DNA from: Lepisosteus oculatus
Taxonomy: Eukaryota > Chordata > Actinopteri > Semionotiformes > Lepisosteidae
NCBI RefSeq assembly: GCF_040954835.1
Contig: NC_090709.1
Span: 38,808,776-38,872,775, forward strand
Reading direction: 5' to 3'
Length of the DNA: 64,000 nucleotides
Every line of letters begins with the position of its first letter. Position 1 is the first letter of the stretch. The notes under the pieces were generated by a model, which did no database searches, had not been told where the DNA came from, and saw only the letters and a list, made by a program, of their open reading frames with translations. The translations under genes were made by a program, and so were the position numbers. Below are positions 3,001 through 60,915 of this stretch, one piece after another.

Positions 3001-6000
3001 ACTGTACTGAGACAGGAGAGACACACTGTACTACCAACACCACACTGATCACACTGACACAGGTACAGAGCTCACACACACTGTACTGAGACAGGAGAGA
3101 CACACTGTACTACCAACACCACACTGATCACACTGACACAGGTACAGAGCTCACACACACTGTACTGAGACAGGAGAGACACACTGTACTACCAACACCA
3201 CACTGATCACACTGACACAGGTACAGAGCTCACACACACTGTACTGAGACAGGAGAGACACACTGTACTACCAACACCACACTGATCACACTGACACAGG
3301 TACAGAGCTCACACACACTGTACTGAGACAGGAGAGACACACTGTACTACCAACACCACACTGATCACACTGACACAGGTACAGAGCTCACACACACTGT
3401 ACTGAGACAGGAGAGACACACTGTACTACCAACACCACACTGATCACACTGACACAGGTACAGAGCTCACACACACTGTACTGAGACAGGAGAGACACAC
3501 TGTACTACCAACACCACACTGATCACACTGACACAGGTACAGAGCTCACACACACTGTACTGAGACAGGAGAGACACACTGTACTACCAACACCACACTG
3601 ACACAGGTACAGAGCTCACACACACTGTACTGAGACAGGAGAGACACACTGTACTACCAACACCACACTGATCATACTGACACAGGTACAGAGCTCACAC
3701 ACACTGTACTGAGACAGGAGAGACACACTGTACTACCAACACCACACTGATCACACTGACACAGGTACAGAGCCACACACACTGTACTGAGACAGGAGAG
3801 ACACACTGTACTACCAACACCACACTGATCACACTGACACAGGTACAGAGCTCACACACACTGTACTGAGACAGGAGAGACACACTGTACTACCAACACC
3901 ACACTGATCACACTGACACAGGTACAGAGCTCACACACACTGTACTGAGACAGGAGAGACACACTGTACTACCAACACCACACTGATCACACTGACACAG
4001 GTACAGAGCTCACACACACTGTACTGAGACAGGAGAGACACACTGTACTACCAACACCACACTGATCATACTGACACAGGTACAGAGCCACACACACTGT
4101 ACTGAGACAGGAGAGACACACTGTACTACCAACACCACACTGGTCACACTGACACAGGTACAGAGCCACACACACTGTACTGAGACAGGAGAGACACACT
4201 GTACTACCAACACCACACTGATCATACTGACACAGGTACAGAGCTCACACACACTGTACTGAGACAGGAGAGACGCACTGTACTACCAACACCACACTGA
4301 TCATACTGACACAGGTACAGAGCTCACACACACTGTACTGAGACAGGAGAGACACACTGTACTACCAACACCACACTGATCATACTGACACAGGTACAGA
4401 GCTCACACACACTGTACTGAGACAGGAGAGACACACTGTACTACCAACACCACACTGATCACACTGACACAGGTACAGAGCTCACACACACTGTACTGAG
4501 ACAGGAGAGACACACTGTACTACCAACACCACACTGATCACACTGACACAGGTACAGAGCTCACACACACTGTACTGAGACAGGAGAGACACACTGTACT
4601 ACCAACACCACACTGATCACAGTGACACAGGTACAGAGCTCACACACACTGTACTGAGACAGGAGAGACACACTGTACTACCAACACCACACTGATCACA
4701 CTGACACAGGTACAGAGCTCACACACACTGTACTGAGACAGGAGAGACACACTGTACTACCAACACCACACTGGTCACACTGACACAGGTACAGAGCTCA
4801 CACACACTGTACTGAGACAGGAGAGACACACTGTACTACCAACACCACACTGATCACACTGACACAGGTACAGAGCTCACACACACTGTACTGAGACAGG
4901 AGAGACACACTGTACTACCAACACCACACTGATCACACTGACACAGGTACAGAGCCACACACACTGTACTGAGACAGGAGAGACACACTGTACTACCAAC
5001 ACCACACTGATCATACTGACGCAGGTACAGAGCTCACACACACTGTACTGAGACAGGAGAGACACACTGTACTACCAACACCACACTGATCATACTGACA
5101 CAGGTACAGAGCTCACACACACTGTACTGAGACAGGAGAGACACACTGTACTACCAACACCACACTGATCACACTGACACAGGTACAGAGCTCACACACA
5201 CTGTACTGAGACAGGAGAGACACACTGTACTACCAACACCACACTGATCATATTGACACAGGTACAGAGCTCACACACACTGTACTGAGACAGGAGAGAC
5301 ACACTGTACTACCAACACCACACTGACACAGGTACAGAGCTCACACACTGTACTGAGACAGGAGAGACACACTGTACTACCAACACCACACTGACACAGG
5401 TACAGAGCCACACACACTGTACTGAGACAGGAGAGACACACTGTACTACCAACACCACACTGATCACACTGACACAGGTACAGAGCTCACACACACTGTA
5501 CTGAGACAGGAGAGACACACTGTACTACCAACACCACACTGACACAGGTACAGAGCTCACACACACTGTACTGAGACAGGAGAGACACACTGTACTACCA
5601 ACACCACACTGATCACACTGACACAGGTACAGAGCTCACACACACTGTACTGAGACAGGAGAGACACACTGTACTACCAACACCACACTGATCATATTGA
5701 CACAGGTACAGAGCTCACACACACTGTACTGAGACAGGAGAGACACACTGTACTACCAACACCACACTGACACAGGTACAGAGCTCACACACTGTACTGA
5801 GACAGGAGAGACACACTGTACTACCAACACCACACTGATCACACTGACACAGGTACAGAGCTCACACACACTGTACTGAGACAGGAGAGACACACTGTAC
5901 TACCAACACCACACTGATCACACTGACACAGGTACAGAGCTCACACACACTGTACTGAGACAGGAGAGACACACTGTACTACCAACACCACACTGATCAC

Positions 6001-7605
6001 ACTGACACAGGTACAGAGCTCACACACACTGTACTGAGACAGGAGAGACGCACTGTACTACCAACACCACACTGATCATACTGACACAGGTACAGAGCTC
6101 ACACACACTGTACTGAGACAGGAGAGACACACTGTACTACCAACACCACACTGATCACACTGACACAGGTACAGAGCTCACACACACTGTACTGAGACAG
6201 GAGAGACACACTGTACTACCAACACCACACTGATCACACTGACACAGGTACAGAGCTCACACACACTGTACTGAGACAGGAGAGACACACTGTACTACCA
6301 ACACCACACTGATCACACTGACACAGGTACAGAGCTCACACACACTGTACTGAGACAGGAGAGACACACTGTACTACCAACACCACACTGATCATACTGA
6401 CGCAGGTACAGAGCTCACACACACTGTACTGAGACAGGAGAGACACACTGTACTACCAACACCACACTGATCACACTGACACAGGTACAGAGCTCACACA
6501 CACTGTACTGAGACAGGAGAGACACACTGTACTACCAACACCACACTGATCATACTGACACAGGTACAGAGCTCACACACACTGTACTGAGACAGGAGAG
6601 ACACACTGTACTACCAACACCACACTGATCACACTGACACAGGTACAGAGCTCACACACACTGTACTGAGACAGGAGAGACACACTGTACTACCAACACC
6701 ACACTGATCATACTGACACAGGTACAGAGCTCACACACACTGTACTGAGACAGGAGAGACACACTGTACTACCAACACCACACTGATCACACTGACACAG
6801 GTACAGAGCCACACACACTGTACTGAGACAGGAGAGACACACTGTACTACCAACACCACACTGATCACACTGACACAGGTACAGAGCTCACACACACTGT
6901 ACTGAGACAGGAGAGACACACTGTACTACCAACACCACACTGATCACACTGACACAGGTACAGAGCTCACACACACTGTACTGAGACAGGAGAGACACAC
7001 TGTACTACCAACACCACACTGGTCACACTGACACAGGTACAGAGGTGACACACACTGTACTGAGACAGGAGAGACACACTGTACTACCAACACCACACTG
7101 ATCACACTGACACAGGTACAGAGCTCACACACACTGTACTGAGACAGGAGAGACACACTGTACTACCAACACCACACTGATCACACTGACACAGGTACAG
7201 AGCTCACACACACTGTACTGAGACAGGAGAGACACACTGTACTACCAACACCACACTGATCACACTGACACAGGTACAGAGCTCACACACACTGTACTGA
7301 GACAGGAGAGACACACTGTACTACCAACACCACACTGGTCACACTGACACAGGTACAGAGGTGACACACACTGTACTGAGACAGGAGAGACACACTGTAC
7401 TACCAACACCACACTGATCATACTGACACAGGTACAGAGCTCACACACACTGTACTGAGACAGGAGAGACACACTGTACTACCAACACCACACTGATCAC
7501 ACTGACACAGGTACAGAGCTCACACACACTGTACTGAGACAGGAGAGACACACTGTACTACCAACACCACACTGGTCACACTGACACAGGTACAGAGGTG
7601 ACACA
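1..7605. repeat. 79-bp minisatellite array, about 96 copies
   Basis: A 79-bp unit (starting AGAGCTCACACACACTGTAC) repeats head to tail from the first base to about 7605, so the array probably continues outside the window. Variants are a 78-bp form (AGAGCCACAC, one base lost), a 70-bp form lacking nine bases around GATCACACT, and scattered substitutions (GATCAC/GATCAT/GGTCAC; GACACA/GACGCA). Variant types recur in patches, as expected from unequal exchange or replication slippage. Short - strand frames of about 62 codons are by-products of the repeat. Confidence 0.97.
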
Positions 7606-9090
7606 CAGTCTGTTCAGTGTTTTCAGTTTGGTATGTTTTGAAATCGGTTAAGTAGCTAGGCACTAAAAATAGACTAAGTGACACAGTTGCTGTTAACCTT
7701 GAGGCTTGTCTTTCATTCATACTAATTTATTTCTTTTTCTTTAACAGAATCTTCTCTTCGTAAGGACTTTCAGTGTTGGATTTTCTCAATTTTACACTGT
7801 ATTTGAATATATTTCTTCTGATGTGTTGTAGATGCTGTACCATTTTTCCTAAGGTGAATTTCAATAACCAGGAAGATACTGCACAGTCCCCTACAGTGCA
7901 AGTCTGTACTTTTAATATGAGAGATGTAATTCTTGTAAATGTATTGCTATCTGTTGTACACATAAAGTTTTGGAAATTTGATTAATTGGTAATCTATAAT
8001 TCCTATTTTATAACTTAATAAGACTAACATTTCTTTTTAGTGTGTCTTTGGTTCTCAGTTGAAAATGTTTTTACTTGTACAATGCAACATTAAAAGAATT
8101 GTGAATGTTGTTGCGGTTTTTTCCTCCTTCAGACCAATAAACACAAATAAACCCCCAGATGTTAAACTATATTTCTGCAACCTGTACAGGCTGAAGACAT
8201 TCAGGGAGAAGTGAATGGAGAATTGGTTAATACACACAGAGTGCGCTAAGGGATGAATACTCAAACTAGGGTGATATAAGATGCAGGGATGGTTAACTAG
8301 TGAAGTCTGGAGATAATACCGAACTAGGATGGCTTCCAAACACTGTACAAGCAGCAAATAAACTTCAAGACTACACAAACCCTGGGAGATAGTTTAAAAT
8401 TTGATTGGTGTAGGGTTTTGCATGCAGATAGTAAAAACGGACCACAAGCATAAATCAAGAAATACTGAGCTAAGACAAGGCTGCAGATGAATATAGAAAA
8501 ACAGTGTGCAAAATTAGGTTAAAAAGTCATCCCAGCAGGTTTCTTCAGAATCAACTCTGAAATACTACAGCCTTGTTCTGGGTTCTTCAGTATATTTATA
8601 GTTTGATTTAGTACTCAATTCTTAATAAAAAAGCGAATTCAATTTAATAAATAAATCAGTTTAAATGAATAATATGAAGTTAATACATTGCAATGAATAT
8701 AAACCAAAATGTACAATTACTGTTTTATATATATGAATATACAGCTATGAATTATGATGTTTCTCAGAAATCCCTGCTGCATACGGCATCTGACTGCTGT
8801 TTGTAACTTATATTTCACTGATGACGCCTTTCCGTGGTGAGAGAACAAGAGACCATAGGTTGACTGCATTGTAGTCAGAACGTAATGTTGGTACAGTGTT
8901 ACAGTGCATCTCTGGGAAAGGGACACTATATATCACTGCATGTTTACAATAATATATAAATACTATTTTGTTAATAAGCTGTAATTACATTCTGGAACTT
9001 CCCCATGTGACTCTCTGTTCGGCTTAGTATAGAAGCAAATTTCTGAAAATGTAGGGCTCAGTCCTGTATTCTAGTATCCAGACAATTCAG
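7606..9090. other. AT-rich unique sequence, no gene recognised
   Basis: After the last 79-bp unit the sequence becomes AT-rich and non-repetitive. Frames are short (at most about 107 codons) and none resembles a known protein or has convincing splice-linked exons. I see no RNA gene. Confidence 0.6.
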
Positions 9091-20727: not shown

Positions 20728-21189
20728 CCCTGTTTCCACCAGGGCCCTCCAGTGCAGTCGGGCTGGGAGCTCCTGGCCGCCTCCTACAGGCCGGACAGGG
20801 GCGCGACAGCACGGCGCCGCGCGGGCCTTCTGGGAAAGGAGACCCCTCACCATGACCCGGCCTGCTCATGAACATGACACCCGGCTCATGTCACATTCGC
20901 TGAGCCCTGTGGGTATCCCAGCACTCCCTACCGACGGTACAGCGCAGGGAGAGGAGGCGCTGGGGTGGGGGGAGGGCGTTGTTTCTCTGATGCTCCGGTC
21001 AGCCCTCCGGGGTCGAGAGCAGAGATAGTCTGGGAGACCGGACACCGTAAGCCCCGCTTCAGACCAGGGCTCTCCAGCCCTCAGTCGCAGGTTTACTCTG
21101 TGTGCGAGTATATCCTGACGCACAAACCAGAGGGCACAGCGGGAAACCACAGGGAAGTGTTTCTCGAATTGTCTTTACGTCGAGGGTGG

Positions 21190-22025
21190 TGGGAGTAGGG
21201 AGCAAGCTGCCCAGCCCTGTTGTTGAGGCCGATACCCTGGCTTCTCTCCAGACACAGCTGGGTGAGCTCCTCCAGTCAGGACAGGAGGCTCTACTGTACA
21301 CAGAGAGGGGTGGGGGTGGGGAACAAGCTGGCTGAGCTGCTCCAGTCAGGACAGGAGGCTCTACTGTACACAGAGGGGGGCGGGGGTGGGGAACAGGCTG
21401 CCCAGCCCTGTGGTTGAAGCCGATACCCCGGCTTCTCTCCAGACACAGCTGGGTGAGCTCCTCCAGTCAGGACAGGAGGCTCTACTGTACACAGAGGGGG
21501 GTGGGGGTGGGGAACAAGCTGGCTGAGCTCCTCCAGTCAGGACAGGAGGCTCTTCTGTACACAGAGAGGGGTGGGAGTGTGGAACAGGCTGCCCAGCCCT
21601 GTGGTTGAAGCCGATACCCTGGCTTCTCTCCAGACACAGCTGGGTGAGCTCCTCCAGTCAGGACAGGAGGCTCTGCTGTACACAGAGGGGGGTGGGGGTG
21701 GGGAACAAGCTGGCTGAGCTCCTCCAGTCAGGACAGGAGGCTCTTCTGTACACAGAGAGGGGTGGGAGTGTGGAACAGGCTGCCCAGCCCTGTGGTTGAA
21801 GCCGATACCCTGGCTTCTCTCCAGACACAGCTGGGTGAGCTCCTCCAGTCAGGACAGGAGGCTCTACTGTACACAGAGGGGGGTGGGGGTGGGGAACAAG
21901 CTGCCCAGCCCTGTGGTTGAAGCCGATACCCTGGCTTCTCTCCAGACACACCTGGGTGAGCTCCTCCAGTCAGGACAGGAGGCTCTGCTGTACACAGAGG
22001 GGGGTGGGGGTGGGGAACAGGCTGT
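21190..22025 (+). repeat. tandem cluster of the ~122-bp dispersed repeat
   Basis: About seven partial or full units with GAACAAGCTGCCCAGCCCTG, TTGAAGCCGATACCCTGGCT, TCTCTCCAGACACAGCTGGG and GTCAGGACAGGAGGCTCT. Units vary by loss of an internal ~55-bp piece. The orientation is opposite to the 22.66-23.1 kb cluster. Confidence 0.92.
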
Positions 22026-22659: not shown

Positions 22660-23105
22660 CGGCTTCGACAACAGGGCCGGGCAGCTTGTTCCCCACCCCC
22701 ACCCCCCTCTGTGTACAGTAGAGCCTCCTGTCCTGACTGGAGGAGCTCACCCAGCTGTGTCTGGAGAGAAGTCAGGGTATCGGCTTCAACCACAGGGCCG
22801 GCCAGCTTGTTCCCCACCCCCACCCCCCTCTGTGTACAGTAGAGCCTCCTGTCCTGACTGGAGGAGCTCACCCAGCTGTGTCTGGAGAGAAGCCAGGGTA
22901 TCGGCTTCAACCACAGGGCTGGGCAGCCTGTTCCCCACCCCCACCCCCCTCTGTGTACAGTAGAGCCTCCTGTCCTGACTGGAGGAGCTCACCCAGCTGT
23001 GTCTGGAGAGAAGCCAGGGTATCGGCTTCAACCACAGGGCTGGGCAGCTTGTTCCCCACCCCCACCCCCCTCTGTGTACAGCAGAGCCTCCTGTCCTGAC
23101 TGGCT
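22660..23105 (-). repeat. tandem cluster of the ~122-bp dispersed repeat, inverted
   Basis: About four units in the orientation opposite to 21190-22025, so the two clusters form an inverted pair about 650 bp apart with module B between them. Confidence 0.92.
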
Positions 23106-23744: not shown

Positions 23745-24765
23745 ACCCTTCTCATACACAGATCGGTGACGCCTGTGTGCCTCACCTGTGTACAAGTGTC
23801 ACCCCTGTCACTGATCGGTCCCGTGTGTCTCACCTGTGTACAGGTGTCTCCCCCGTCGCACACAGAGCGCAGTGACACAGATCGGTCCTGTGTGCCTCAC
23901 CTGTGTACAGGTGTCACCCCTGTCACACACAGAGCGCAGTGACACTGATCGGTCCTGTGTGTCTCACCTGTGTACAGGTGTCACCCCCGTCGCACACACA
24001 GCGCAGTGACACAGATGGGTCCTGTGTGTCTCACCTGTGTACAGGTGTCACCCCTGTCGCACACAGAGCGCAGTGACACAGATCGGTCCTGTGTGTCTCA
24101 CCTGTGTACAGGTGTCACCCCTGTCACACACAGAGCGCAGTGACACAGATCGGTCCTGTGTGTCTCACCTGTGTACAGGTGTCACCCCTGTCACACACAG
24201 AGCGCAGTGACACTGATCGGTCCTGTGTGTCTCACCTGTGTACAGGTGTCACCCCCGTCGCACACACAGCGCAGTGACACAGATCGGTCCTGTGTGTCTC
24301 ACCTGTGTACAGGTGTCACCCCCGTCACACACAGAGCGCAGTGACACTGATCGGTCCTGTGTGTCTCACCTGTGTACGGGTGTCACCCCTGTCACTGATC
24401 GGTCCTGTGTGTCTCACCTGTGTACAGGTGTCACCCCTGTCGCACACAGAGCGCAGTGACACAGATCGGTCCTGTGTGTCTCACCTGTGTACAGGTGTCA
24501 CCCCTGTCACACACAGAGCGCAGTGACACAGATCGGTCCTGTGTGTCTCACCTGTGTACAGGTGTCACCCCTGTCACTGATCGGTCCTGTGTGTCTCACC
24601 TGTGTACAGGTGTCACCCCTGTCGCACACAGAGCGCAGTGACACAGATCGGTCCTGTGTGTCTCACCTGTGTACAGGTGTCACCCCTGTCACACACAGAG
24701 CGCAGTGACACAGATCGGTCCTGTGTGTCTCACCTGTGTACAGGTGTCACCCCTGTACTGTGGGC
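23745..24765. repeat. 67-bp minisatellite with a built-in palindrome
   Basis: About 14 units of 67 bp (AGTGACACAGATCGGTCCTG ... CACACAGAGCGC), some truncated. Each holds CACCTGTGTACAGGTG, with 7-bp perfect inverted arms around GT, so each unit can form a short hairpin and carries paired E-box/ZEB-type CACCTG motifs. Confidence 0.93.
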
Positions 24766-35756: not shown

Positions 35757-35820
35757 ATGACATTCTTCCAGGTCCTAGGTGTGTTTCTGGCAGCTGCCTG
35801 GTGTGGGGTTCGTGCTAATG
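35757..35820 (+). CDS. alpha1 exon 1: signal peptide
   Basis: 64 nt encoding MTFFQVLGVFLAAAWCGVRA plus the start of the mature chain. The same length as exon 1 of alpha2. Context AACAAAATGA. Donor TG|GTAAGT. Confidence 0.93.
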
Positions 35821-37954
35821 GTAAGTAAACACTGTTTTCTTACTCTACCAAAAACAAACAAGCAAACAAACAAAACAACATTGTAATATCGGATCATTTA
35901 TCATAATCTGTCGTGTGGACTTGAGCGGGATATTTTTATTTGCACGTTTGTCACCTTTCTGCAAAAGCTTGGATCTTCCTGGTAAGTGTGGCGGTGTCAC
36001 AGAGCCCTCACTCTGCGAGCAGAGTGGACAAGGGAAGACCCGTCCGTCCACCTCGCAGAACGCTCCTGCTGTGAACCGGCAGCACAACCTGAAGAAGCTG
36101 CGTCGTATCTGATCAAACTATTTTGGTTTCTCTTGCAGTTCTACATCGTGGCTTCCTTTTAACTGCCTGCCAGTCCAACGTCACTAGAACTTTAAGTGAG
36201 TTGCAGCTGGATGGGGAAGGGGTCGCCTACATGGATTTTGACCGGGAAGAGATGGTCATGACGCTCCCACAGTTCGCAGACCCCATCAGCCCTGGTGGGG
36301 AGGGGGTGACGCTGGCCCTGGGTTGCAGGGAGCTCTGCAGAAACAGCCTGATGGAAGTGGCAAAGGCCGAAGGATACCCTCCGGAGAGGAAGGGTGAGGT
36401 GGCAACAGTCTTGTTTTATTTATCGTCTCCCCCATTCCTTACTCCACCAGCGCGTCGTGCTTTCAGACCTGTACCGCTCTACACCAGACACGTATACCTC
36501 AGCCTGTGCCTCGTCCACACCAGCTGTCCTTCTGCTGGGAAGCATCCTTACAGCGGGGTGTCACAGGATGGGGAACAGGCTGCCCAGCCCTGTGGTTGAA
36601 GCCGATACCCTGGCTTCTCTCCAGACACAGCTGGGTGAGCTCCTCCAGTCAGGACAGGAGGCTCTACTGTACACAGAGGGGGGTGGGGGTGGGGAACAGG
36701 CTGCCCAGCCCTGTGGTTGAAGCCGATACCCTGGCTTCTCTCCAGACACAGCTGGGTGAGCTCCTCCAGTCAGGACAGGAGGCTCTTCTGTACACAGAGA
36801 GGGGTGGGGGTGGGGAACAGGCTGCCCAGCCCTGTGGTTGAAGCCGATACCCTGGCTTCTCTCCAGACACAGCTGGGTGAGATCTAACAATCATCAGACC
36901 AGAGCAGACAGGAGGTCACCACTCTGACCCAGGACCATAACTTTCATCTGTTTCTCCTACATTGTGATTTTAAAGACAAGGATTGACTATGAACTCCCCA
37001 GGTCTGAAGGGTAATTTGACAACTGAGAATGAGGAGCCCAGAGCTGTGTCAGTAAGGAAACTGTGGATGATGTAATCAGTGCCTTCGTCCATCCAGCATG
37101 GTGAGACCATTTCTGCATGCCCTCAGATGCGCCTACTGCGATGGTGTACCCCAGAGACAGCGTCGAGCTGGGGAAGCCCAACACGCTCATCTGCTCCGTC
37201 ACGGACTTCCACCCGATGGGTATCGGGGTGACCTGGACCCACAACGACAGGCCAGTCACCGAGGGCGTCACCCAGACCACACTGCTCTCTGGGAGAGACT
37301 TCAGCTTCAAGGTCTTCTCCTTCCTGCCCTTCACACCCCGGCTGGGCGACGTCTACTCCTGCCAGGTGCAGCACAGCGCCCTGCCCGAGCCCCTCGCCAG
37401 ACTCTGGGGTGAGTGCAGGGCTCCCTCTGACGCCGCCGTCCAGAGACGCTTCACTCGGCGAGACAGACGCGCTCAGACAGTCCCCCCAGTGGGACTGTGT
37501 TTTCCCTAAGTGTTGCCTGTGTCGCTACAGTGACAAGAACGAGATAAGAGGTTTGTACTGATTCCGTGTCCTGGGAAGAGCTGTGGGCGTGGAGCAGTGA
37601 TTTCAGTAAATGAAAGATGTTCTCTAACAGTGACAAGTCCGTCTCACTGACCAGTGTTAGAAATCAGCTCTGCACGTCAAACACAAGCTCCTGTCTTGAA
37701 GTAACGTGCTGGAGAGAAGCCCTGTGTGTCCCTCTGCAGAGAGCCAGAGCAGGGGGTGACAGGGCCACCCTGCTCAACAAGGGGGACAGCGACTGTGTCA
37801 TCATGTCATTTGTCCAACTACAGAGGTGGAGACGGAGACGGGGACAGAGTCTGACATCGGGCCGACAGCGTTCTGCGTGGCGGGCCTGACCCTGGGGCTG
37901 CTGGGAGTGGCAGCCGGGACCTTCTTCCTCATCAAGGGCAGCAGCTGCAACTGA
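35757..37954 (+). CDS. MHC class II alpha chain (alpha1), four coding exons
   Basis: Coding exons: 35757-35820, 36139-36393, 37127-37408 and 37824-37954. Junctions are phase 1 GT/AG and the total is 732 nt (243 residues plus stop). The product is a type I membrane protein with leader, alpha1 peptide-binding domain, Ig-like alpha2 domain and TM. It partners a class II beta chain. The alpha1 domain carries the N-glycosylation sequon NVT and Cys in TACQ and ELCRN. An extra Cys sits three residues before the second of these (GCRELC). The Ig domain has LICSVTDFHP and YSCQVQHSALPEPL. The TM has the GLTLGLLGVAAG small-residue pattern. No breaks are seen. Its nearest beta partner is beta2, 1.3 kb downstream. 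Confidence 0.95.
36139..36393 (+). CDS. alpha1 exon 2: alpha1 peptide-binding domain
   Basis: 255 nt, 85 codons. Begins VLHRGFLLTACQSNVT and ends AEGYPPERK. Acceptor CTCTTGCAG, donor GG|GTGAGG. The motif LPQFADPISPGG is the class II alpha strand/helix boundary. Confidence 0.95.
36565..36880 (+). repeat. ~122-bp dispersed repeat in alpha1 intron 2
   Basis: About 2.5 units, same orientation as 56635-57066, which occupies the same intron of alpha2. This suggests the repeat was there before the alpha genes duplicated. Confidence 0.92.
37127..37408 (+). CDS. alpha1 exon 3: alpha2 Ig (C1-set) domain
   Basis: 282 nt. Begins APTAMVYPRDSVELGKPNTL and contains Cys at LICSVTD and YSCQVQHS, with the invariant Trp in VTWTHNDRPVTEGV. 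Acceptor CCCTCAG, donor GG|GTGAGT. Confidence 0.96.
37824..37954 (+). CDS. alpha1 exon 4: connecting peptide, TM, tail
   Basis: 131 nt with stop TGA. Acidic connecting peptide EVETETGTESD, TM AFCVAGLTLGLLGVAAGTFF, very short tail LIKGSSCN. The exon goes on six bases past the stop to CAG|GTACTG, so the 3' UTR is split. Confidence 0.93.
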
Positions 37955-47829: not shown

Positions 47830-49890
47830 GGGTCTGGGACTCGACTGGAGTCTGACCAGCACCAGTAAGAAGAGGGACTGGTCTGGGACTGGACTGGAGT
47901 CTGACCAGCACCTGTAAGAAGAGGGACTGGACTCTGACCAGCACCAGTAAGAAGAGGGACTGGTCTGGGACGGGAGTCTGACCAGCACCAGTAAGGAGGG
48001 GGACTGGAGTCTGACCAGCACCAGTAAGAAGAAGGACTGGTCTGTGACTGGAGTCTGACCAGCACTGGTAAGAAGAAGGACTGGTCTGTGACTGGACTCT
48101 GACCAGCACCAGTAAGAAGAGGGACTGGACTCTGACCAGCACCAGTAAGAAGAGGGACTGGTCTGGGACTGGACTAGACTCTGACCAGCACCGGTAAGAA
48201 GAGGGACTGGACTCTGACCAGCACCGGTAAGAAGAGGGACTGGTCTGGGACTGGACTGGAGTCTGACCAGAGCCGGTAAGAAGAGGGACTGGTCTGGGAC
48301 TGGAGTCTGACCAGAGCCAGTAAGAAGAGGGACTGGTCTGGGACTGGACCCTGACCAGCACCGGTAAGAAGAGGGACTGGAGTCTGACCAGCACTGGTAA
48401 GAAGAGGGACTGGTCTGGGACCGGAGTCTGACCAGCACTGGTAAGAAGAGGGACTGGTCTGGGACTGGACTCTGACCAGCACTGTTAAGAAGAGGGACTG
48501 GTCTGGGACTGGAGTGGACTCTGACCAGCACCGGTAAGAAGAGGGACTGGTCTGGGACTGGAGTCTGACCAGCATCGGTAAGAAGAGGGACTGGTCTGGA
48601 GTCTGACCAGTACCAGTAAGAAGAGGGACTGGTCTGGGACTGGAGTCTGACCAGCACCGGTAAGAAGAGGGACTGGTCTGGGACTGGAGTCTGACCAGCA
48701 CTGGTAAGAAGAGGGACTGGTCTGGGACTGGAGTCTGACCAGCACCGGTAAGAAGAGGGACTGGTCTGGGACTGGACTCTGACCAGCACCGGTAAGAAGA
48801 GGGACTGGACTGGGACTGGAGTCTGACAATCACCAGTAAGAAGAGGGACTGGACTCTGAACAGCACCAGTAAGAAGAGGGACTGGACTCTGAACAGCACC
48901 AGTAAGAAGAGGGACTGGTCTGGGACTGGACTGGAGTCTGACCAGCATCAGTAAGAAGAGGGACTGGTCTGGGACTGGAGTCTGACCAGCACCGGTAAGA
49001 AGAGGGACTGGTCTGGGACTGGAGTCTGACCAGCACCGGTAAGAAGAGGGACTGGTCTGGGACTGGAGTCTGACCAGCACCGGTAAGAAGAGGGACTGGT
49101 CTGGGACTGGAGTCTGACCAGCACCGGTAAGAAGAGGGACTGGTCTGGGACTGGAGTCTGACCAGCACCGGTAAGAAGAGGGACTGGTCTGGGACTGGAG
49201 TCTGACCAGCACCGGTAAGAAGAGGGACTGGTCTGGGACTGGAGTCTGACCAGCACCAGTAAGAAGAGGGACTGGAGTCTGATCAGCACCGGTAAGAAGA
49301 GGGACTGGTCTGGGACTGGAGTGGACTCTGACCAGCACCGGTAAGAAGAGGGACTGGTCTGGGACTGGAGTCTGACCAGCATCGGTAAGAAGAGGGACTG
49401 GTCTGGAGTCTGACCAGTACCAGTAAGAAGAGGGACTGGTCTGGGACTGGAGTCTGACCAGCACCGGTAAGAAGAGGGACTGGTCTGGGACTGGAGTCTG
49501 ACCAGCATCGGTAAGAAGAGGGACTGGTCTGGAGTCTGACCAGTACCAGTAAGAAGAGGGACTGGTCTGGGACTGGAGTCTGACCAGTACCAGTAAGAAG
49601 AGGGACTGGTCTGGGACTGGAGTCTGACCAGCACCGGTAAGAAGAGGGACTGGTCTGGGACTGGAGTCTGACCAGCACCGGTAAGAAGAGGGACTGGACT
49701 CTGACCAGCACCGGTAAGAAGAGGGACTGGACTGGGACTGGAGTCTGACAATCACCAGTAAGAAGAGGGACTGGAGTCTGAACAGCACCGGTAAGAAGAG
49801 GGACTGGTCTGGGACTGGAGTCTGACCAGCACCAGTAAGAAGAGGGACTGGGCTCTGACCAGCACCAGTAAGAAGGGGGACTGGTCGCGC
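47830..49890. repeat. 44-bp minisatellite, about 47 copies
   Basis: Unit GTAAGAAGAGGGACTGGTCT + GGGACTGGAGTCTGACCAGC + ACCG. 33-bp and longer forms arise from loss or doubling of GGACTGG-based pieces. Each unit contains C-G/GTAAGAA, a good 5' splice-site look-alike on the + strand. Long - strand frames are artefacts. Confidence 0.95.
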
Positions 49891-51425: not shown

Positions 51426-51679
51426 GATCACACACTCAGGTATTCGAAGCTCCTTTGCCAGGCGGAAGGTTTTGACGAGTGTCGATGGTGTCGCTGGTGT
51501 TTCTACCGGTCCGATCCCTCTCTCACACTGCAGCAGGCTCTGGAAAGTCCCTGCAGGGAGACTTCGAGCAGCGAATCAGCACACAGTGCTGGTGCCGAGT
51601 CATCAGGTGTGAGGGAGAGGGCACAGAGTCTGACACTGCAGTGCTGTTCAGCAGCTCTCTGTCCATAGTCTTCAGACTA

Positions 51680-52245
51680 GGCTTCAACAGCAGGGCTGGG
51701 CAGCTTGTTCCCCACCCCCACCCCTCTCTGTGTACAGCAGAGCCTCCTGTCCTGACTGGAACAGCTCAGCCAGCTTGTTCCCCACCCCCACCCCCCTCTG
51801 TGTACAGCAGAGCCTCCTGTCCTGACTGGAGGAGCTCACCCAGCTGTGTCTGGAGAGAAGCCAGGGTATTGGCTTCAACAGCAGGGCTGGGCAGCCTGTT
51901 CCCCACCCCCACCCCTCTCTGTGTACAGTAGAGCCTCCTGTCCTGACTGGAACAGCTCAGCCAGCTTGTTCCCCACCCCCACCCCCCTCTGTGTACAGCA
52001 GAGCCTCCTGTCCTGACTGGAGGAGCTCACCCAGCTGTGTCTGGAGAGAAGCCAGGGTATAGGCTTCAACCACAGGGCTGGGCAGCTTGTTCCCCACCCC
52101 CACCCCCCTCTGTGTACAGCAGAGCCTCCTGTCCTGACTGGAGGAGCTCACCCAGCTGTGTCTGGAGAGAAGCCAGGGTATCGGCTTCAACCACAGGGCT
52201 CGGCAGCTTGTTCCCCACCCCCACCCCTCTCTGTGTGAAGTGTTA
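51680..52245 (-). repeat. ~122-bp dispersed repeat cluster upstream of alpha2
   Basis: About five units, as in 22660-23105. It ends 68 bp before the first Y-box repeat of alpha2. Confidence 0.92.
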
Positions 52246-52588: not shown

Positions 52589-52652
52589 ATGAAGACCTGC
52601 GCCTGGCCAGCTCTGGTCCTGGCAGCGCTGTCCCTGTCTGTTCAGGCTCAGG
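52589..52652 (+). CDS. alpha2 exon 1: signal peptide
   Basis: 64 nt, MKTCAWPALVLAALSLSVQA then Q. Donor GG|GTAAGA. Same length and phase as alpha1 exon 1. Confidence 0.93.
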
Positions 52653-55600
52653 GTAAGACGAGCGCGGCTGGCTTCAAATGCACACACTCCTCCGGTGTTT
52701 TTGTTATTGTGGGTAACTGCAGTTTCCTTACTTACTTCCTTACTTTGTGAAATGTCATAACGTGTGACATGAATTGAAGACGAGGCAGAGATCTTCATCG
52801 CAACTTCTTTGTTGACAGAAGAGGCTCAGCTGTGTGAAGTATCTGATCGTAACAGTCTGGTGTGAGAGAGAGAGGTCACTGGGTTTACAGTGAGGGAGAG
52901 AGAGAGACGGGTCACTGGGTTTACAGTGAGGGAGAGAGAGAGACGGATCACTGGGTTTACAGTGAGGGAGAGAGAGAGACGGATCACTGGGTTTACAGTG
53001 AGGGAGAGAGAGAGAGACGGATCACTGGGTTTACAGTGAGGGAGAGAGAGAGAGACGGATCACTGGGCTTACAGTGAGGGAGAGAGAGAGAGACGGATCA
53101 CTGGGCTTACAGTGAGGCAGAGAGAGAGACGGATCACTGGGTTTACAGTGAGGGAGAGAGAGAGACGGATCACTGGGTTTACAGTGAGGGAGAGAGAGAG
53201 AGACGGATCACTGGGTTTACAGTGAGGGAGAGAGAGAGAGACGGATCACTGGGCTTACAGTGAGGGAGAGAGAGAGAGACGGATCACTGGGCTTACAGTG
53301 AGGGAGAGAGAGAGAGACGGATCACTGGGCTTACAGTGAGGGAGAGAGAGAGAGACGGATCACTGGGCTTACAGTGAGGGAGAGAGAGAGAGACGGATCA
53401 CTGGGCTTACAGTGAGGGAGAGAGAGAGACGGATCACTGGGCTTACAGTGAGGGAGAGAGAGAGACGGATCACTGGGCTTACAGTGAGGGAGAGAGAGAG
53501 ACGGATCACTGGGCTTACAGTGAGGGAGAGAGAGAGACGGATCACTGGGCTTACAGTGAGGGAGAGAGAGAGACGGATCACTGGGCTTACAGTGAGGGAG
53601 AGAGAGAGACGGATCACTGGGTTTACAGTGAGGGAGAGAGAGAGACGGATCACTGGGCTTACAGTGAGGGAGAGAGAGAGACGGATCACTGGGCTTACAG
53701 TGAGGGAGAGAGAGAGAGAACCAAGGACTGATCACGCCCATCTATAAGAGTGGAGATAAACTCGATCCCAACAACTACCGGGGCATCTGTGTGAACAGTA
53801 ACCTGGGGAAGGTATTCTGCAGTATCCTAAATACACGAATACTGGCCTTCCTTACCGAACACAATGTCCTGAGTAAAAGTCAGATTGGCTTCTTGCTAGA
53901 TCACCGCACATCTGATCACATTTACACCCTACACACACTGATAGACAAACACGTCCACCAAAAACACAAAGGAAAAATTTTTGCCTGCTTTGTCGATTTC
54001 AAAAAAGCATTTGACTCGATTTGGCATGAGAGATTGTTTTATAAACTACTCCAAAGTGGCATAGGGGGCAAAGTGTACGACATCATTAAATCAATGTATT
54101 CAGAGAGCAAATGTGCAGTGAAAATTGGAAACAAAAGGACTAAATTCTTCACCCAAGGCCGCGGGGTGAGACAGGGCTGCAGCCTGAGCCCAACACTGTT
54201 CAATATCTATATCAATGAATTAGCAGGAATGTTGGAGCAGTCTGCAGCTCCTGGTCTTACACTACACGACACAGAAATCAAGTTCCTGCTCTACGCAGAT
54301 GACCTGGTCCTGCTGTCGCCCACAGAACAGGGGCTGCAGCAGAACCTGGCACTGCTGGAGCAGTACTGTCAGACCTGGGCACTGACAGTCAATCTGGACA
54401 AGACCAGAGTTATGGTTTTCCAGAAGAAAGCCAGACCTCAGGGAAACAGGTACAAATTCACACTGAACAAGAACACATTGGAGCACACATCCAGCTACAC
54501 ATATCTCGGTCTCACCATCAGCTCTTCCGGGAGTTTTGACCTGGCAGTGAAGGCACTGAGGGAGAAGGCACTCAGGGCTTTCTACGCAATAAGAAGGAGG
54601 CTCTTCAACATCAACCCACCAACAAGAATCTGGCTCCAAATATTTGAAAGTGTAATCCAACCCATTGCCCTATACGGCAGTGAAGTTTGGGGTCCCCTCA
54701 CAGACCAGGATTACACCCAATGGGACAAACACCCCACAGAAACTCTGCACATGGAGATCTGTAGAATCATCCTCCGTGTGCAGAGAAAAACTCCTAACAA
54801 CGGGTGCAGGGCCGAATTAGGCCAGTACCCACTATTGATAAACATACAGAAAAGAATATTAAAGTATTGGCTACACCTAAAAAACAGCGACCAAAATTCC
54901 TACCACCACAAAGCCCTGCTGAGCCAAGAGCTGAGCCCAAAACAGAGCCCCCTGAGCCAGCTGGTCCTGAGGCTCACCGACCTGAGCCACACCAACACTA
55001 ACCAGCCTCAGGACAGCACTGCTAGAGCACCACAACCCAGACTCAACCACATCACAGCACAGATCAAACAGCAATATCTCACACACTGGGACACACACAC
55101 ACAAACACAACATAAACTGGAATGCTACAGAACCTTAAACAGACAATACACACTAGCTGAATATTTGACCAAAATAAAAAATAACAAACAGAAACAGACC
55201 CTGACGAAGTACAGGCTCAGTGACCACAACCTGGCCATAGAAACTGGGCGACACAGGCAGACCTGGCTGCCCAGAGAGGACAGGCTGTGCTCCCACTGCC
55301 AGCAGGGAGAAATAGAGACAGAGGTGCACTTCCTACTGCACTGTGACAGATACTCTGGGATTAGAGAAACATTCTTCCCGAAATTCAGAAATCTAATCCC
55401 AGAGTTCCCACACCTGCCAAAACCACAACAGGTCCCAATCCTACTGGGAGAGGGAGGAGGGAACTCAGTTGATCTGGCAGCCCAGTATGTGATCTCCTGT
55501 CACAGCCTGAGGAACAGTGAGTCCGTCTCCCAATAATGCTCCAGCTGCCTACAGTATGTCAATATTATATAATATGTCTTTGTTGTAAATGTCTGTAACA

Positions 55601-58600
55601 TGTCTGTAGATTTTATTTTACTTCTATTTTTTGTTTTGTTCTATGTTAATTTTATTATTTTTATTTGCTTTGGCAACACTGATTGTACCCATCGGTCATG
55701 CTAATAAAGCACCTTGAATTGAATTGAATTGAGAGACGGATCACTGGGCTTACAGTGAGGGAGAGAGAGAGACGGATCACTGGGCTTACAGTGAGGGAGA
55801 GAGAGAGACGGATCACTGGGCTTACAGTGAGGGAGAGAGAGAGAGACGGATCACTGGGTTTACAGTGAGGGAGAGAGAGGGCGAGACTCCTGTAGATCTG
55901 TCCTCTGTCAATGACCTGGGTGTGTCCAGTTCAGTGATGAAGAGCAGTGTACAGGGAGAGAGACAGACTCACCTGTGTCCCGTCAGTGACCCGTGTGTGT
56001 GACCTGTCTCTGTCCAGTCCAGTGCCCGGTGTGTGACCTGTGTCCGGTCAGTGACCCTGTGTGTGACCTGTGTCCGGTCAGTGACCCTGTGTGTGACCGG
56101 TGTCCAGTCAGTGCCCCGTGTGTGACTCGTGTGTGACCGGTGTCCAGTCAGTGCCCTGTGTGTGACCCGTGTGTGACCGGTGTCCAGTCAGTGCCTGGTG
56201 TGTGACCGGTGTCCAGTCAGTGCCTGGTGTGTGACCGGTGTCCAGTCAGTGCCTGGTGTGTGACCGGTGTCCAGTCAGTGCCCCGTGTGTGTCCCGTCCC
56301 TGTCCAGTGCTGCACCGGGCGGTGGACCTGACCGCCTGCCTGTCCAACGACACGGAGTCGCAGGCGCTGGGCCAGCTGGACGGGGACCAGATGTTCTTCG
56401 TGGACCTGGAGCTGCGGCAGGCCGTCCTCACGCTGCCCCCCTTCGCTGACCCCTTCGCCCTGGGGCCGGACTCTGTGGCCCAGGCGCTGGCCAGCAGGCA
56501 GCTCTGCAGGAACAACCTGGCCACCGCCGCCCGCGCCGAGGGCTTCCCGCCAGAGACCGCCGGTGAGGGGCCGCGGGGCCGGGTCCGCTGCACACACAGG
56601 GTGGGGGTGACCCTGACCTTTCACCTTTCACCCTGGGACAGGAGACTCTACTGTACAAAGAGAGGGGTGGGGGTGGGGAACAAGCTGCCCAGCCCTGTGG
56701 TTGAAGCCGATACCCTGGCTTCTCTCCAGACACAGCTGGGTGAGCTCCTCCAGTCAGGACAGGAGGCTCTTCTGTACACAGAGGGGGATGGGGGTGGGGA
56801 ACAGGCTGCCCAGCCCTGTGGTTGAAGCCGATACCCTGGCTTCTCTCCAGACACAGCTGGGTGAGCTCCTCCAGTCAGGACAGGAGGCTCTTCTGTACAC
56901 AGAGGGGGGCGGGGGTGGGGAACAGGCTGCCCAGCCCTGTGGTTGAAGCCGATACCCTGGCTTCTCTCCAGACACAGCTGGGTGAGCTCCTCCAGTCAGG
57001 ACAGGAGGCTCTACTGTACACAGAGGGGGGTGGGGGTGGGGAACAAGCTGCCCAGCCCTGCTGTTGGGGTCACTGTTATAGAGGGACATCTGGGGTTCAC
57101 CGCCTGCAGGGGGTGGGGGGCCCCCATCTGTCCTGCTGGGAAGCTCCGAGCTGTTCCCAGAGAGCAGCAGCTCTCTCCCCTGCGTGGGTCCGCCGGGGGT
57201 CACGATGGCGACTGACCCCCGATTCCTTCCTCTCCTCCCCGCAGAGCCCCCCGTGGCCATGGTGTACCCCAAGAGCGTGGTGCGGCCGGGGGAGCCCAAC
57301 ACGCTGATCTGCTCCGCCCAGCGCTACTACCCCTTCCCGCTGGGCCTGGCCTGGGCCCGGAACGGCGAGCCGGTCGCCGGGACGACCCCCCAGACGCTGT
57401 CGCTGGTCCGCCGCGACGCCACCTACAGCTGCTACTCGCTGCTGCCCTTCAGCCCCCGGCCCGGCGACGTGTACACCTGCCACCTGCAGCACCGCGCCCT
57501 GCGCCGGCCCCTGGTGGTGGCCTGGGGTGAGTCCTGCCCTCCTGCCCTCCTGCCCCTGGGGGTGGCCTGGGGTGAGTCCTGCCCTCCTGCCCCTGGGGGC
57601 GGCCTGGGGTGAGTACTGCCCTCCTGCCCTCCTGCCCCTGGGGGTGGCCTGGCCTGAGTACTGCCCTCCTGCCCTCCTGCCCCTGGGGGTGGCCTGGGGT
57701 GAGTCCTGCCCTCCTGCCCTCCTGCCCCTGGGGGTGGCCTGGGGTGAGTCCTGCCCTCCTGCCCCTGGGGGTGGCCTGGCCTGAGTACTGCCCTCCTGCC
57801 CCTGGGGGTGGCCTGGCCTGAGTACTGCCCTCCTGCCCTCCTGCCCTCCTGCCCCTGGGGGTGGCCTGGGGTGAGTCCTGCCCTCCTGCCCTCCTGCCCC
57901 TGGGGGTGGCCTGGGGTGAGTCCTGCCCTCCTGCCCCTGGGGGTGGCCTGGCCTGAGTACTGCCCTCCTGCCCTCCTGCCCTCCTGCCCCTGGGGGTGGC
58001 CTGGGGTGAGTCCTGCCCTCCTGCCCTCCTGCCCCTGGGGGTGGCCTGGGGTGAGTACTGCCCTCCTGCCCTCCTGCCCCTGGGGGTGGCCTGGGGTGAG
58101 TACTGCCCTCCTGCCCTCCTGCCCCTGGGGGTGGCCTGGGGTGAGTACTGCCCTCCTGCCCTCCTGCCCCTGGGGATGGCCTGGGGTGAGTACTGCCCTC
58201 CTGCCCTCCTGCCCCTGGGGGTGGCCTGGGGTGAGTCCTGCCCTCCTGCCCTCCTGCCCTCCTGCCCTCCTGCCCTCCTGCCCCTGGGGATGGCCTGGGG
58301 TGAGTACTGCCCTCCTGCCCTCCTGCCCCTGGGGGTGGCCTGGGGTGAGTACTGCCCTCCTGCCCTCCTGCCCCTGGTGGTGGCCTGGGGTGAGTCCTGC
58401 CCTCCTGCCCTCCTGCCCCTGGTGGTGGCCTGGGGTGAGTCCTGCCCTCCTGCCCTCCTGCCCCTGGTGGTGGCCTGGGGTGAGTCCTGCCCTCCTGCCC
58501 TCCTGCCCCTGGGGGTGGCCTGGGGTGAGTCCTGCCCTCCTGCCCCTGGGGGTGGCCTGGGGTGAGTCCTGCCCTCCTGCCCTCCTGCCCTCCTGCCCCT

Positions 58601-60512
58601 GGGGGTGGCCTGGCCTGAGTACTGCCCTCCTGCCCTCCTGCCCCTGGGGGTGGCCTGGGGTGAGTCCTGCCCTCCTGCCCTCCTGCCCCTGGGGGTGGCC
58701 TGGCCTGAGTACTGCCCTCCTGCCCCTGGTGGTGGCCTGGGGTGAGTCCTGCCCTCCTGCCCCTGGGGGTGGCCTGGGGTGAGTCCTGCCCTCCTGCCCT
58801 CCTGCCCCTGGGGGTGGCCTGGGGTGAGTCCTGCCCTCCTGCCCTCCTGCCCCTGGGGGTGGCCTGGGGTGAGTCCTGCCCTCCTGCCCTCCTGCCCCTG
58901 GGGGTGGCCTGGCCTGAGTACTGCCCTCCTGCCCCTGGTGGTGGCCTGGGGTGAGTCCTGCCCTCCTGCCCTCCTGCCCCTGGGGGTGGCCTGGGGTGAG
59001 TACTGCCCTCTTGCCCTCCTGCCCCTGGGGGTGGCCTGGGGTGAGTCCTGCCCTCCTGCCCTCCTGCCCCTGGGGGTGGCCTGGGGTGAGTCCTGCCCTC
59101 CTGCCCTCCTGCCCCTGGGGGTGGCCTGGCCTGAGTACTGCCCTCCTGCCCTCCTGCCCCTGGTGGTGGCCTGGGGTGAGTCCTGCCCTCCTGCCCTCCT
59201 GCCCTCCTGCCCCTGGGGGTGGCCTGGGGTGAGTCCTGCCCTCTTGCCCTCCTGCCCCTGGGGGTGGCCTGGGGTGAGTCCTGCCCTCCTGCCCTCCTGC
59301 CCCTGGGGGTGGCCTGGGGTGAGTCCTGCCCTCCTGCCCTCCTGCCCCTGGGGGTGGCCTGGGGTGAGTCCTGCCCTCCTGCCCTCCTGCCCCTGGGGGT
59401 GGCCTGGGGTGAGTACTGCCCTCCTGCCCCTGGGGGCGGCCTGGGGTGAGTACTGCCCTCCTGCCCTCCTGCCCCTGGGGGTGGCCTGGGGTGAGTACTG
59501 CCCTCCTGCCCCTGGGGGCGGCCTGGGGTGAGTACTGCCCTCCTGCCCCTGGGGGCGGCCTGGGGTGAGTACTGCCCTCCTGCCCCTGGGGGTGGCCTGG
59601 CCTGAGTACTGCCCTCCTGCCCCTGGGGGCGGCCTGGCCTGAGTACTGCCCTCCTGCCCTCCTGCCCCTGGGGGCGGCCTGGCCTGAGTACTGCCCTCCT
59701 GCCCTCCTGCCCCTGGGGGCGGCCTGGCCTGAGTACTGCCCTCCTGCCCCAGGAGCACAGATAGATAGATACCCCCTCTGTCTCTGTGGTGAGGGTGACC
59801 CTGCGCCCCGTGTGTCTCCTGTCCCCTCTGTCTCTGTGGTGAGGGTGACCCTGCGCCCCGTGTGTCTCCTGTCCCCTCTGTCTCTCTGGTGAGGGTGACC
59901 CTGCGCCCCGTGTGTCTCCTGTCCCCTCTGTGTCTCTGTGGTGAGGGTGACCCTGCGCCCCGTGTGTCTCCTGTCCCCTCTGTCTCTGTGGTGAGGGTGA
60001 CCCTGCGCCCCGTGTGTCTCCTGTCTCTCTGGTGAGGGTGACCCTGCGCCCCGTGTGTCTCCTGTTCCCTCTGTCTCTGTGGTGAGGGTGACCCTGCGCC
60101 CCGTGTGTCTCCTGTCTCTCTGGTGAGGGTGACCCTGCGCCCCGTGTGTCTCCTGTCCCCTCTGTCTCTGTGGTGAGGGTGACCCTGCGCCCCGTGTGTC
60201 TCCTGTCTCTCTGGTGAGGGTGACCCTGCGCCCCGTGTGTCTCCTGTCCCCTCTGTCTCTGTGGTGAGGGTGACCCTGCGCCCCGTGTGTCTCCTGTCTC
60301 TCTGGTGAGGGTGACCCTGCGCCCCGTGTGTCTCCTGTCCCCTCTGTCTCTCTGGTGAGGGTGACCCTGCGCCCCGTGTGTCTCCTGTCTCTACAGAGGT
60401 GCCCCCTGAGGCCCGGCCCGGCGCTGTCCTGACGGTGGTCTGCGGGGTGGCGATGGCGCTGGGGATGCTGGGAGTCGTGACCGGCTGCCTCCTCTTCTGC
60501 GTGAGCAGCTGA
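52589..60512 (+). CDS. MHC class II alpha chain (alpha2), four coding exons
   Basis: Coding exons: 52589-52652, 56308-56562, 57245-57526 and 60397-60512. All phase 1, GT/AG, 717 nt (238 residues plus stop). Same exon sizes as alpha1 in exons 1-3. The alpha1 domain has Cys in TACL and QLCRN and the sequon NDT at the position of NVT in alpha1. The Ig domain has LICSAQRYYP and YTCHLQH, plus an additional Cys in YSCYSLLPF. The TM CGVAMALGMLGVVTGCLLF keeps the G-rich pattern. Third positions are very GC-rich compared with alpha1. Introns are swollen by minisatellites and a LINE (gene span 7.9 kb against 2.2 kb). No coding breaks. Confidence 0.94.
52860..53719. repeat. ~36-bp minisatellite in alpha2 intron 1 (left part)
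   Basis: GGATCACTGGGCTTACAGTG + AGGGAGAGAGAGAGAC units, about 24 copies. The array resumes at 55734 after the LINE. Confidence 0.95.
53720..55536 (+). CDS. LINE reverse transcriptase (partial, intact C-terminal part)
   Basis: Open for about 600 codons from ITPIYKSGDKLDPNNYRGI, upstream of the first ATG (53791), to TAA at 55534-55536. RT blocks in order: FACFVDFKKAFDSIWHERL (catalytic Asp), GRGVRQGCSLSPTLFNIYIN, and LLYADDLVLLSP with the YADD active site at 54292-54303. The C-terminal CSHCQQGEIETEVHFLLHC is a Cys/His segment common at LINE ORF2 ends. Absence of stops suggests a recent insertion. It is not a host gene. Confidence 0.9.
53720..55733 (+). mobile_element. 5'-truncated non-LTR retrotransposon (LINE)
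   Basis: Inserted in the 36-bp array of alpha2 intron 1. It starts inside the reverse-transcriptase region and ends with a T-rich 3' UTR and an ATTGAATTGAATTG tail. The repeat array continues unchanged on the far side, so the target was the array itself. Target-site duplication cannot be delimited because the target is GAGA-rich. The endonuclease half is missing, so it is not self-mobile. The clade is not assigned. Confidence 0.92.
55734..55885. repeat. 36-bp minisatellite, right part
   Basis: About four further GGATCACTGGGCTTACAGTG units after the LINE, identical in type to 52860-53719. Confidence 0.93.
55985..56300. repeat. GTGTGTGACCGGTGTCCAGT tandem repeat ahead of alpha2 exon 2
   Basis: Units of about 30-45 bp built on GTGACCGGTGTCCAGTCAGT and GCCCCGTGTGTGA. 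The last unit merges into the exon 2 acceptor CCCTGTCCAG|TG, whose TGTCCAG|T is repeated in each unit. Confidence 0.88.
56308..56562 (+). CDS. alpha2 exon 2: alpha1 peptide-binding domain
   Basis: 255 nt. VLHRAVDLTACLSNDTESQA ... LPPFADPFALGPDS ... QLCRNNLATAARAEGFPPE. Aligns without gaps in length to alpha1 exon 2. Donor CG|GTGAGG. Confidence 0.95.
56635..57066 (+). repeat. ~122-bp dispersed repeat in alpha2 intron 2
   Basis: About 3.5 units, same orientation and intron as 36565-36880 in alpha1. Confidence 0.92.
57245..57526 (+). CDS. alpha2 exon 3: alpha2 Ig (C1-set) domain
   Basis: 282 nt. EPPVAMVYPKSVVRPGEPNT ... LICSAQRYYPFPLGLAWARN ... GDVYTCHLQHRALRRPL. Acceptor TCCCCGCAG. The exon ends CTGGTGGTGGCCTGGG|GTGAGT, which is the seed of the following array. 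Confidence 0.96.
57527..59755. repeat. 45-bp minisatellite carrying copies of the exon 3 end and its splice donor
   Basis: Units of 45 bp (37- and 53-bp forms differ by CCCTCCTG steps): GTGAGTCCTGCCCTCCTGCC ... CCCCTGGGGGTGGCCTGGG. The last 20 or so bases of each unit copy the true exon 3 end (CCCCTGGTGGTGGCCTGGG), some with the exact GGTGGTGG. By eye, 35-40 copies keep GG|GTGAGT and about a dozen have CCTGAGT, which destroys the donor. Confidence 0.95.
59770..60390. repeat. 50/41-bp minisatellite abutting the alpha2 exon 4 acceptor
   Basis: GGTGAGGGTGACCCTGCGCC + CCGTGTGTCTCCTGT, with or without CCCCTCTGT, in about 13 copies. The final copy runs into TCTCCTGTCTCTACAG, the acceptor of exon 4. 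Confidence 0.95.
60397..60512 (+). CDS. alpha2 exon 4: connecting peptide, TM, tail
   Basis: 116 nt with stop TGA. EVPPEARPGAVL, then TM TVVCGVAMALGMLGVVTGCL, then LFCVSS. Shorter connecting peptide than alpha1, almost no tail. Confidence 0.92.
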
Positions 60513-60519
60513 GCACACA

Positions 60520-60915
60520 CTGATACACAACCTACACACGCCTACACGTAGACACTGATACACAACCTACACACGCCTACACGTAGATACTGATACACAC
60601 CACACACACACTGATACACACCACAGACACACGCGTACGCACCTACACACTGATACACACAACCTACACACGCCTACGCATAGACACACTGATACACACC
60701 ACACACAGATCACAGACGCACAGACACACACTCTCCTTCCTACACACACTGATACACACCCCAGACGCCTACACTCAGACACGCACAGATACACACTGGT
60801 ACACACGTACACACGCTGATATACACCAGACACGCACTGACGCACGCCACACACTGATAAACACAGACACAGATCACAGACGCACACTCACGCACACAGA
60901 TACACACACACACAC
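60520..60915. repeat. degenerate ACACACTGATACACAACCTA repeat
   Basis: CA-rich words (CTGATACACA, CCTACACACGCCTACAC) repeat irregularly just after the alpha2 stop. Probably part of the 3' UTR. Confidence 0.8.

Follow-up and report, generated by a model that had tools for sequence, protein, structure and literature searches.

Lepisosteus oculatus carries, in an MHC class II alpha gene (A2), a tandem array of 51 units that begins inside exon 3, such that the last 20 nt of the exon (57507-57526) and its splice donor are the start of unit 1 and the units continue head-to-tail into intron 3. Tandem units that straddle an exon-intron boundary and duplicate its splice site are termed mirages, and the A2 array is a real and large mirage of this known kind, located in a class II alpha gene. 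In all likelihood, it is a minisatellite that grew passively and presumably neutrally, with the first donor dominating and those of units 2 and 3 possibly serving as minor sites. Nothing as yet speaks for its regulation or selection.

The window, i.e. the whole 64-kb stretch of DNA that was analysed, encodes three class II genes, one beta and two alpha, all on the plus strand (Table 1). A2 is an intact MHC class II alpha gene: exons of 64, 255, 282 and 116 nt, separated by phase 1 introns of 3655, 682 and 2870 bp, encode in one open frame a 238-aa product with an alpha-1 domain (MHC_II_alpha, 53.1 bits, Pfam cut-off 23), a C1-set domain (54.6 bits, cut-off 21), and a connecting/transmembrane exon. 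Residues 24-233 of the product align to a solved HLA-DR alpha chain, including the PL..W|E at the end of exon 3, which is therefore conserved MHC coding sequence. Tandem arrays occupy 46% of the window (37 merged arrays under the filter used), and its first 7607 bases (1-7607) are filled by a 79-bp satellite of 97 copies with 97% matches. Four of 20 splice junctions lie within 25 bp of an array edge (1.14 expected, P 0.024), but without the A2 exon-3 donor the count is 3/19 (P 0.09), and the stronger value for A2 alone (3/6, P 0.004) belongs to a gene chosen after seeing the data; a general rule that arrays sit at splice junctions is thus suggestive only. The end of beta exon 1 (12745) is about 278 bases from the nearest array edge.

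Table 1. Class II genes, exons, splice sites and tandem arrays in the window
Feature	Position	Strand	Basis or content
Beta gene B	12681 to about 16024	+	
Alpha gene A1	35757-37954	+	
Alpha gene A2	52589-60512	+	
A2 exon 1, signal peptide	52589..52652	+	joined-exon translation, open 238-aa protein
A2 exon 2, alpha-1 domain	56308..56562	+	Pfam MHC_II_alpha E 2.7e-14
A2 exon 3, alpha-2 Ig domain	57245..57526	+	Pfam C1-set E 1.4e-14; solved class II alpha chains
A2 exon 4, connecting peptide, transmembrane segment and stop	60397..60512	+	translation; alignment to solved chains
5' array of intron 3, the exon-3 end copied in all 51 units; 39 intact donors, 12 units without GT	57507..59750	+	Tandem Repeats Finder; anchor count
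True donor GTGAGT (GT at 57527-57528)	57527..57532	+	phase-1 junction gives intact protein
First decoy donor, frame kept, predicted extension of 15 aa (GESCPPALLPLGVAW)	57572..57577	+	translation
Second decoy donor, frameshift, predicted stop in exon 4 and loss of transmembrane segment	57609..57614	+	translation
3' array of intron 3, made up of 13 modules (TGAC and a pyrimidine-rich tract), the last being the true 3' intron end	59773..60392	+	donor-rich, 6 donor-like 9-mers
Intron 1 array, units similar to the intronic (TGTCCAG) but not the exonic flank of the exon-2 acceptor	55971..56291	+	shuffle test
Donor-rich array	23809-24760	minus	15 donor-like 9-mers CAGGTGAGA/G
Donor-rich array	47831-49884		25 donor-like 9-mers (21 CCGGTAAGA, 4 CTGGTAAGA)
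121-bp (or 191-bp) unit	21188-22024, 22660-23103, 36569-36881, 51678-52236, 56636-57060	both orientations	

With the array limits taken from Tandem Repeats Finder and the units counted by their TGAGT anchors, every one of the 51 units contains a copy of the 20 exonic nt and of no fewer than 17 nt of the intron. The junction GG|GTGAGT is kept in 39, the true donor included, which leaves 38 decoys, and the other 12 carry CCTGAGTA, in which CC replaces GG at the cut. The initial annotation had claimed a copy of the last ~20 exon bases and the donor in every unit, about 35-40 decoys of the same sequence and about a dozen broken ones, and these counts bear it out. Compared with the 20-nt exon part, seven units (the exon included) show no mismatch, 26 show one, 15 show two and three show three, while its best match outside the array, in the whole window and on either strand, has 5 mismatches. 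The 50 steps between units measure 45 bp (32 times), 37 bp (13), 53 bp (4) or 69 bp (1), all of which follow 29 + 8k, where k counts an 8-mer that is itself repeated. The base after TGAGT is C in 26 and A in 13 of the 39 GGTGAGT units, whereas it is A in 12/12 of the CCTGAGTA units. Because of this linked base, the simplest reading is that the broken units look like one change multiplied by duplication; their order along the array exhibits no significant pattern (mean index P 0.25, runs P 0.11).

Several observations bear upon whether the exon end or the array came first. The exon end is native MHC sequence, and the paralog A1, located 20 kb away, has the same donor as A2 (GGG|GTGAGT) but no array in its 415-bp intron 3. 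Furthermore, when the array (from 57560, first 1200 bases) was aligned to the exon side only of the 20 junctions, its own junction scored 41, which 0/300 dinucleotide shuffles reached; among the best four of the 20, the next by shuffle rank scored 21, reached by 14/300. Lastly, unit 1 is of a minority type (7/51), yet six units of the interior match it exactly over 40 nt. Taken together, these findings indicate that the end of A2 exon 3 seeded the array, as had been proposed initially from the letters. The six identical units are also what would be expected of a recent exchange, and the exon end has probably swapped sequence with the array not long ago. We envision that a tandem duplication captured the exon-3 donor, together with the 20 exonic nt before it and at least 17 nt of intron, from an intact class II alpha gene, and that slippage and unequal exchange subsequently expanded this segment to 51 units. 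Since it sits within intron 3, the array would ordinarily be spliced out along with the intron.

The closest parallels are the mirages described from amphioxus in the Adh3 and globin genes BflGb6 and BflGb9, with similar repeats in TnC and PGBD5, according to the parts of the reports available (PMC3087553, PMC3902484). As in A2, their tandem units straddle the exon-intron boundary, many with a splice signal, and as far as the excerpts go, the unit sizes overlap those of A2 (Adh3, 10-72 bp). The repeated boundary is on the donor side in BflGb9, like that of A2, and on the acceptor side in BflGb6. Unlike these systems, A2 is a vertebrate-type MHC gene, it has 51 units versus the 6 and 3 given for two BflGb6 haplotypes, and its whole intron is array. 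Mirages are described in the available text as duplicating splice sites and differing in unit number, while reportedly leaving regular splicing undisturbed (PMC3087553), and those of Adh and troponin C are stated there to produce no aberrant mRNAs (PMC3902484). The boundary unit of the BflGb6 mirage is likewise reported, in the portion at hand, to be less homogenised than the interior ones; such a boundary exclusion is not clear in A2, which counts against our preferred reading. Minisatellites are also familiar from fish MHC class II genes, including those of flounder, perch-like fish, cichlid, stickleback and brook charr, as well as a salmon 3'UTR, and in the excerpts available the flounder decamer and the perch hexamer contain GT and AG (PMC4394517, PMC5310070, PMC2386828, PMC3891768). 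Like the A2 array, these are tandem repeats in class II genes and several reportedly vary between loci or alleles, but the same excerpts describe none as an exon-end copy with its donor. No MHC mirage was found in the open-licence literature searched, which is not proof of its absence in print.

If splicing is indeed regular, the spliceosome must distinguish the first donor from its copies. The splice-site scoring of each unit that had been suggested at the outset was performed with 9-mer frequencies and the U1 5' end, and neither 9-mer strength nor the U1 pairing pattern differs among the 39 donors; they all share the one 9-mer GGGGTGAGT, which includes the GG|GTGAGT, so a 9-mer model cannot rank them. 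Among true donors, the U1 duplex energies are -10.4 for A2 exon 3 and -11.5 for A1 exon 3, and 84 of the 4411 GT sites on the plus strand of the window, the 39 included, score at least as high as the A2 exon-3 donor. Four G runs occur in the 100 nt 3' of the donor, compared to a range of 0-6 over ten introns. RNA structure was rejected as the reason for the choice, as the predicted unpaired probability of the first donor is mid-range among the decoys, with 18, 18 and 13 of the 38 at least as open at three settings. While this absence of a predicted advantage also weighs against our reading, the true exon-3 donors of A1 (3/3 settings) and B (2/3) are predicted to be buried even deeper than that of A2, so the accessibility model says little in such G+C-rich DNA. 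A role for the decoys as U1 guards against premature polyadenylation was similarly discarded, because intron 3 contains neither AATAAA nor ATTAAA and there is nothing obvious to guard. As neither the 9-mer nor predicted accessibility singles out the first donor, context is left as the explanation: presumably, the majority of transcripts use the first donor since it is transcribed ahead of the others and closes the 282-nt exon.

The consequences of choosing another donor can be read by translation, keeping the exon-4 acceptor and treating exon 4 as the last exon. Use of the first decoy (unit 2) would yield a 253-aa product with frame and membrane anchor preserved, whereas the second (unit 3) would place a stop 10 nt into exon 4. 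The other 36 of the 38 decoys all lead to one common premature stop, at a distance of 89 to 1955 nt before the last junction; it is the TGA that the donor copy of unit 3 presents in a shifted frame. Stops beyond 50-55 nt upstream of the last junction generally direct an mRNA to decay, and these 36 messages would thus be predicted to be degraded. The expectation that decoy use would mostly harm the product accordingly holds for 37 of 38 decoys, but a PLGVAWGESCPPA-type extension of exon 3, also anticipated in the initial annotation, retains a usable frame at the first decoy only and loses it from the second on. Under passive growth, any leakage would therefore be expected to generate a +15-aa chain from unit 2, a chain without a membrane anchor from unit 3, and degraded message from deeper units.

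It is also conceivable, though rather unlikely, that a constant minor fraction of transcripts is spliced from the donors of units 2 and 3, and that the longer and the anchor-less chains are useful or tolerated. In the human IFI6 (6-16) minisatellite, which has multiple splice donors, a 12 bp unit is reportedly present in about 26 copies, whereas the A2 spacing is 37-69 bp. In IFI6, as in A2, the donor at an exon end is repeated, and two downstream units are stated to serve as donors to give three mRNAs, as summarised from Turri et al. 1995 in the passage available (PMC4526556). Such a precedent, together with an identical 9-mer in unit 2 that would preserve both frame and anchor, favors some isoform production. 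Conversely, the unit 3 product would have no anchor, and the amphioxus mirages are reported in the excerpts cited above without aberrant mRNA. This scenario overlaps with passive growth, which likewise permits minor use of these units, and the odds of the two do not sum to one.

An assembly artefact, in which the array was collapsed or inflated and its real unit number differs, seems improbable. The published BflGb6 mirage does appear to be misassembled in a genome draft, as the available text has it (PMC3087553). However, the A2 units vary at seven columns (identified by eye) and in four spacings to form a mosaic, and no series longer than three unit types recurs, which differs from what a single block assembled twice would give.

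We regard as very improbable that the decoys constitute a regulatory ladder, whereby the number of intact donors would set the loss of pre-mRNA and the supply of anchor-less chain, and allele length would tune class II expression. A tuning of A2 splicing or expression, and variation between haplotypes, had been raised as possibilities in the initial annotation. The uniformity of the 38 decoys, the single stop through which 36 are predicted to decay and the one predicted to give an anchor-less chain are all compatible with such a ladder, and, in the excerpt available, a cis minisatellite of the brook charr MHC class II beta gene reportedly modulates expression (PMC3891768). Against it are the apparent origin of the broken units from one linked change, their unpatterned order, and the undisturbed splicing reported for mirages elsewhere. 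Moreover, a repeat rich in donor motifs is not unique in the window, since three of the other arrays contain at least 5 donor-like 9-mers, defined as within 0.25 bit of the A2 exon-3 donor or above (Table 1). One of these is the 3' array of intron 3 itself. The other two were searched for a hidden exon nearby, which was rejected in both cases as no Pfam domain matched at E 0.01 in the few flanking frames (5 beside 23809-24760 and 9 beside 47831-49884, of 481 masked). The distinguishing mark of the 5' array in A2 intron 3 is instead its exon-derived part.

Intron 3 is 99.1% array. The modules of its 3' array are branch-point/pyrimidine-like, and a branch-point role may be supposed for them. The last reaches the true acceptor, its candidate branch point and AG being 32 nt apart, while the other 12 are followed by an AG only after 36-47 nt, inside GTGAG. 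This array resembles the intron side of the exon-4 acceptor (0/1000 shuffles reach the score), but seeding by exon 4 was not supported, since 262/1000 shuffles reach the exon-side score. The intron 1 array behaves similarly toward the exon-2 acceptor, with 0/1000 for the intron side and, for the exon side, 408/1000, which does not support seeding by exon 2. Among 10 arrays compared with 20 junctions, three further low-score hits also stood out from shuffles: the intron 1 array matched the ends of A2 exon 2 (score 18, 0/300 shuffles) and A1 exon 1 (score 23, 1/300), and the 121-bp array matched that of A2 exon 2 (score 20, 1/300). They were judged to be chance. Also very improbable is the proposal that both ends of intron 3 were made into satellites (donor x51, branch-point/pyrimidine x13), leaving an intron composed of little except repeated splice signals, and that their unit number would act as a heritable rheostat setting how much alpha message is membrane-bound, anchor-less or decayed.

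Additional repeats are found within and around A2. The 121-bp (or 191-bp) unit is a dispersed tandem repeat that recurs in either orientation at five sites, among them the second intron of each alpha gene. In A2 intron 1, a LINE-like element with a reverse transcriptase (53717-55731, Pfam RVT_1 E 1.4e-40) has an open frame of 610 residues (53704-55536); one 36-bp minisatellite flanks it on both sides and it looks inserted into that array. On the minus strand (57097-60566), 3/3 frames are open for more than 1000 codons through the intron-3 arrays, which is most simply attributed to repeated units without stops.

For the gene itself, the array has two implications. Firstly, a tandem array includes the donor of an MHC exon and the seven codons before it, and it is for this reason that exchange with a CCTGAGTA unit could delete the true donor in one step, in which event unit 2 may act as an in-frame spare. 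Secondly, A2 provides a natural test of a spliceosome choosing among 39 donors that share one 9-mer across 2 kb, when almost any other choice would be predicted to ruin the gene product.
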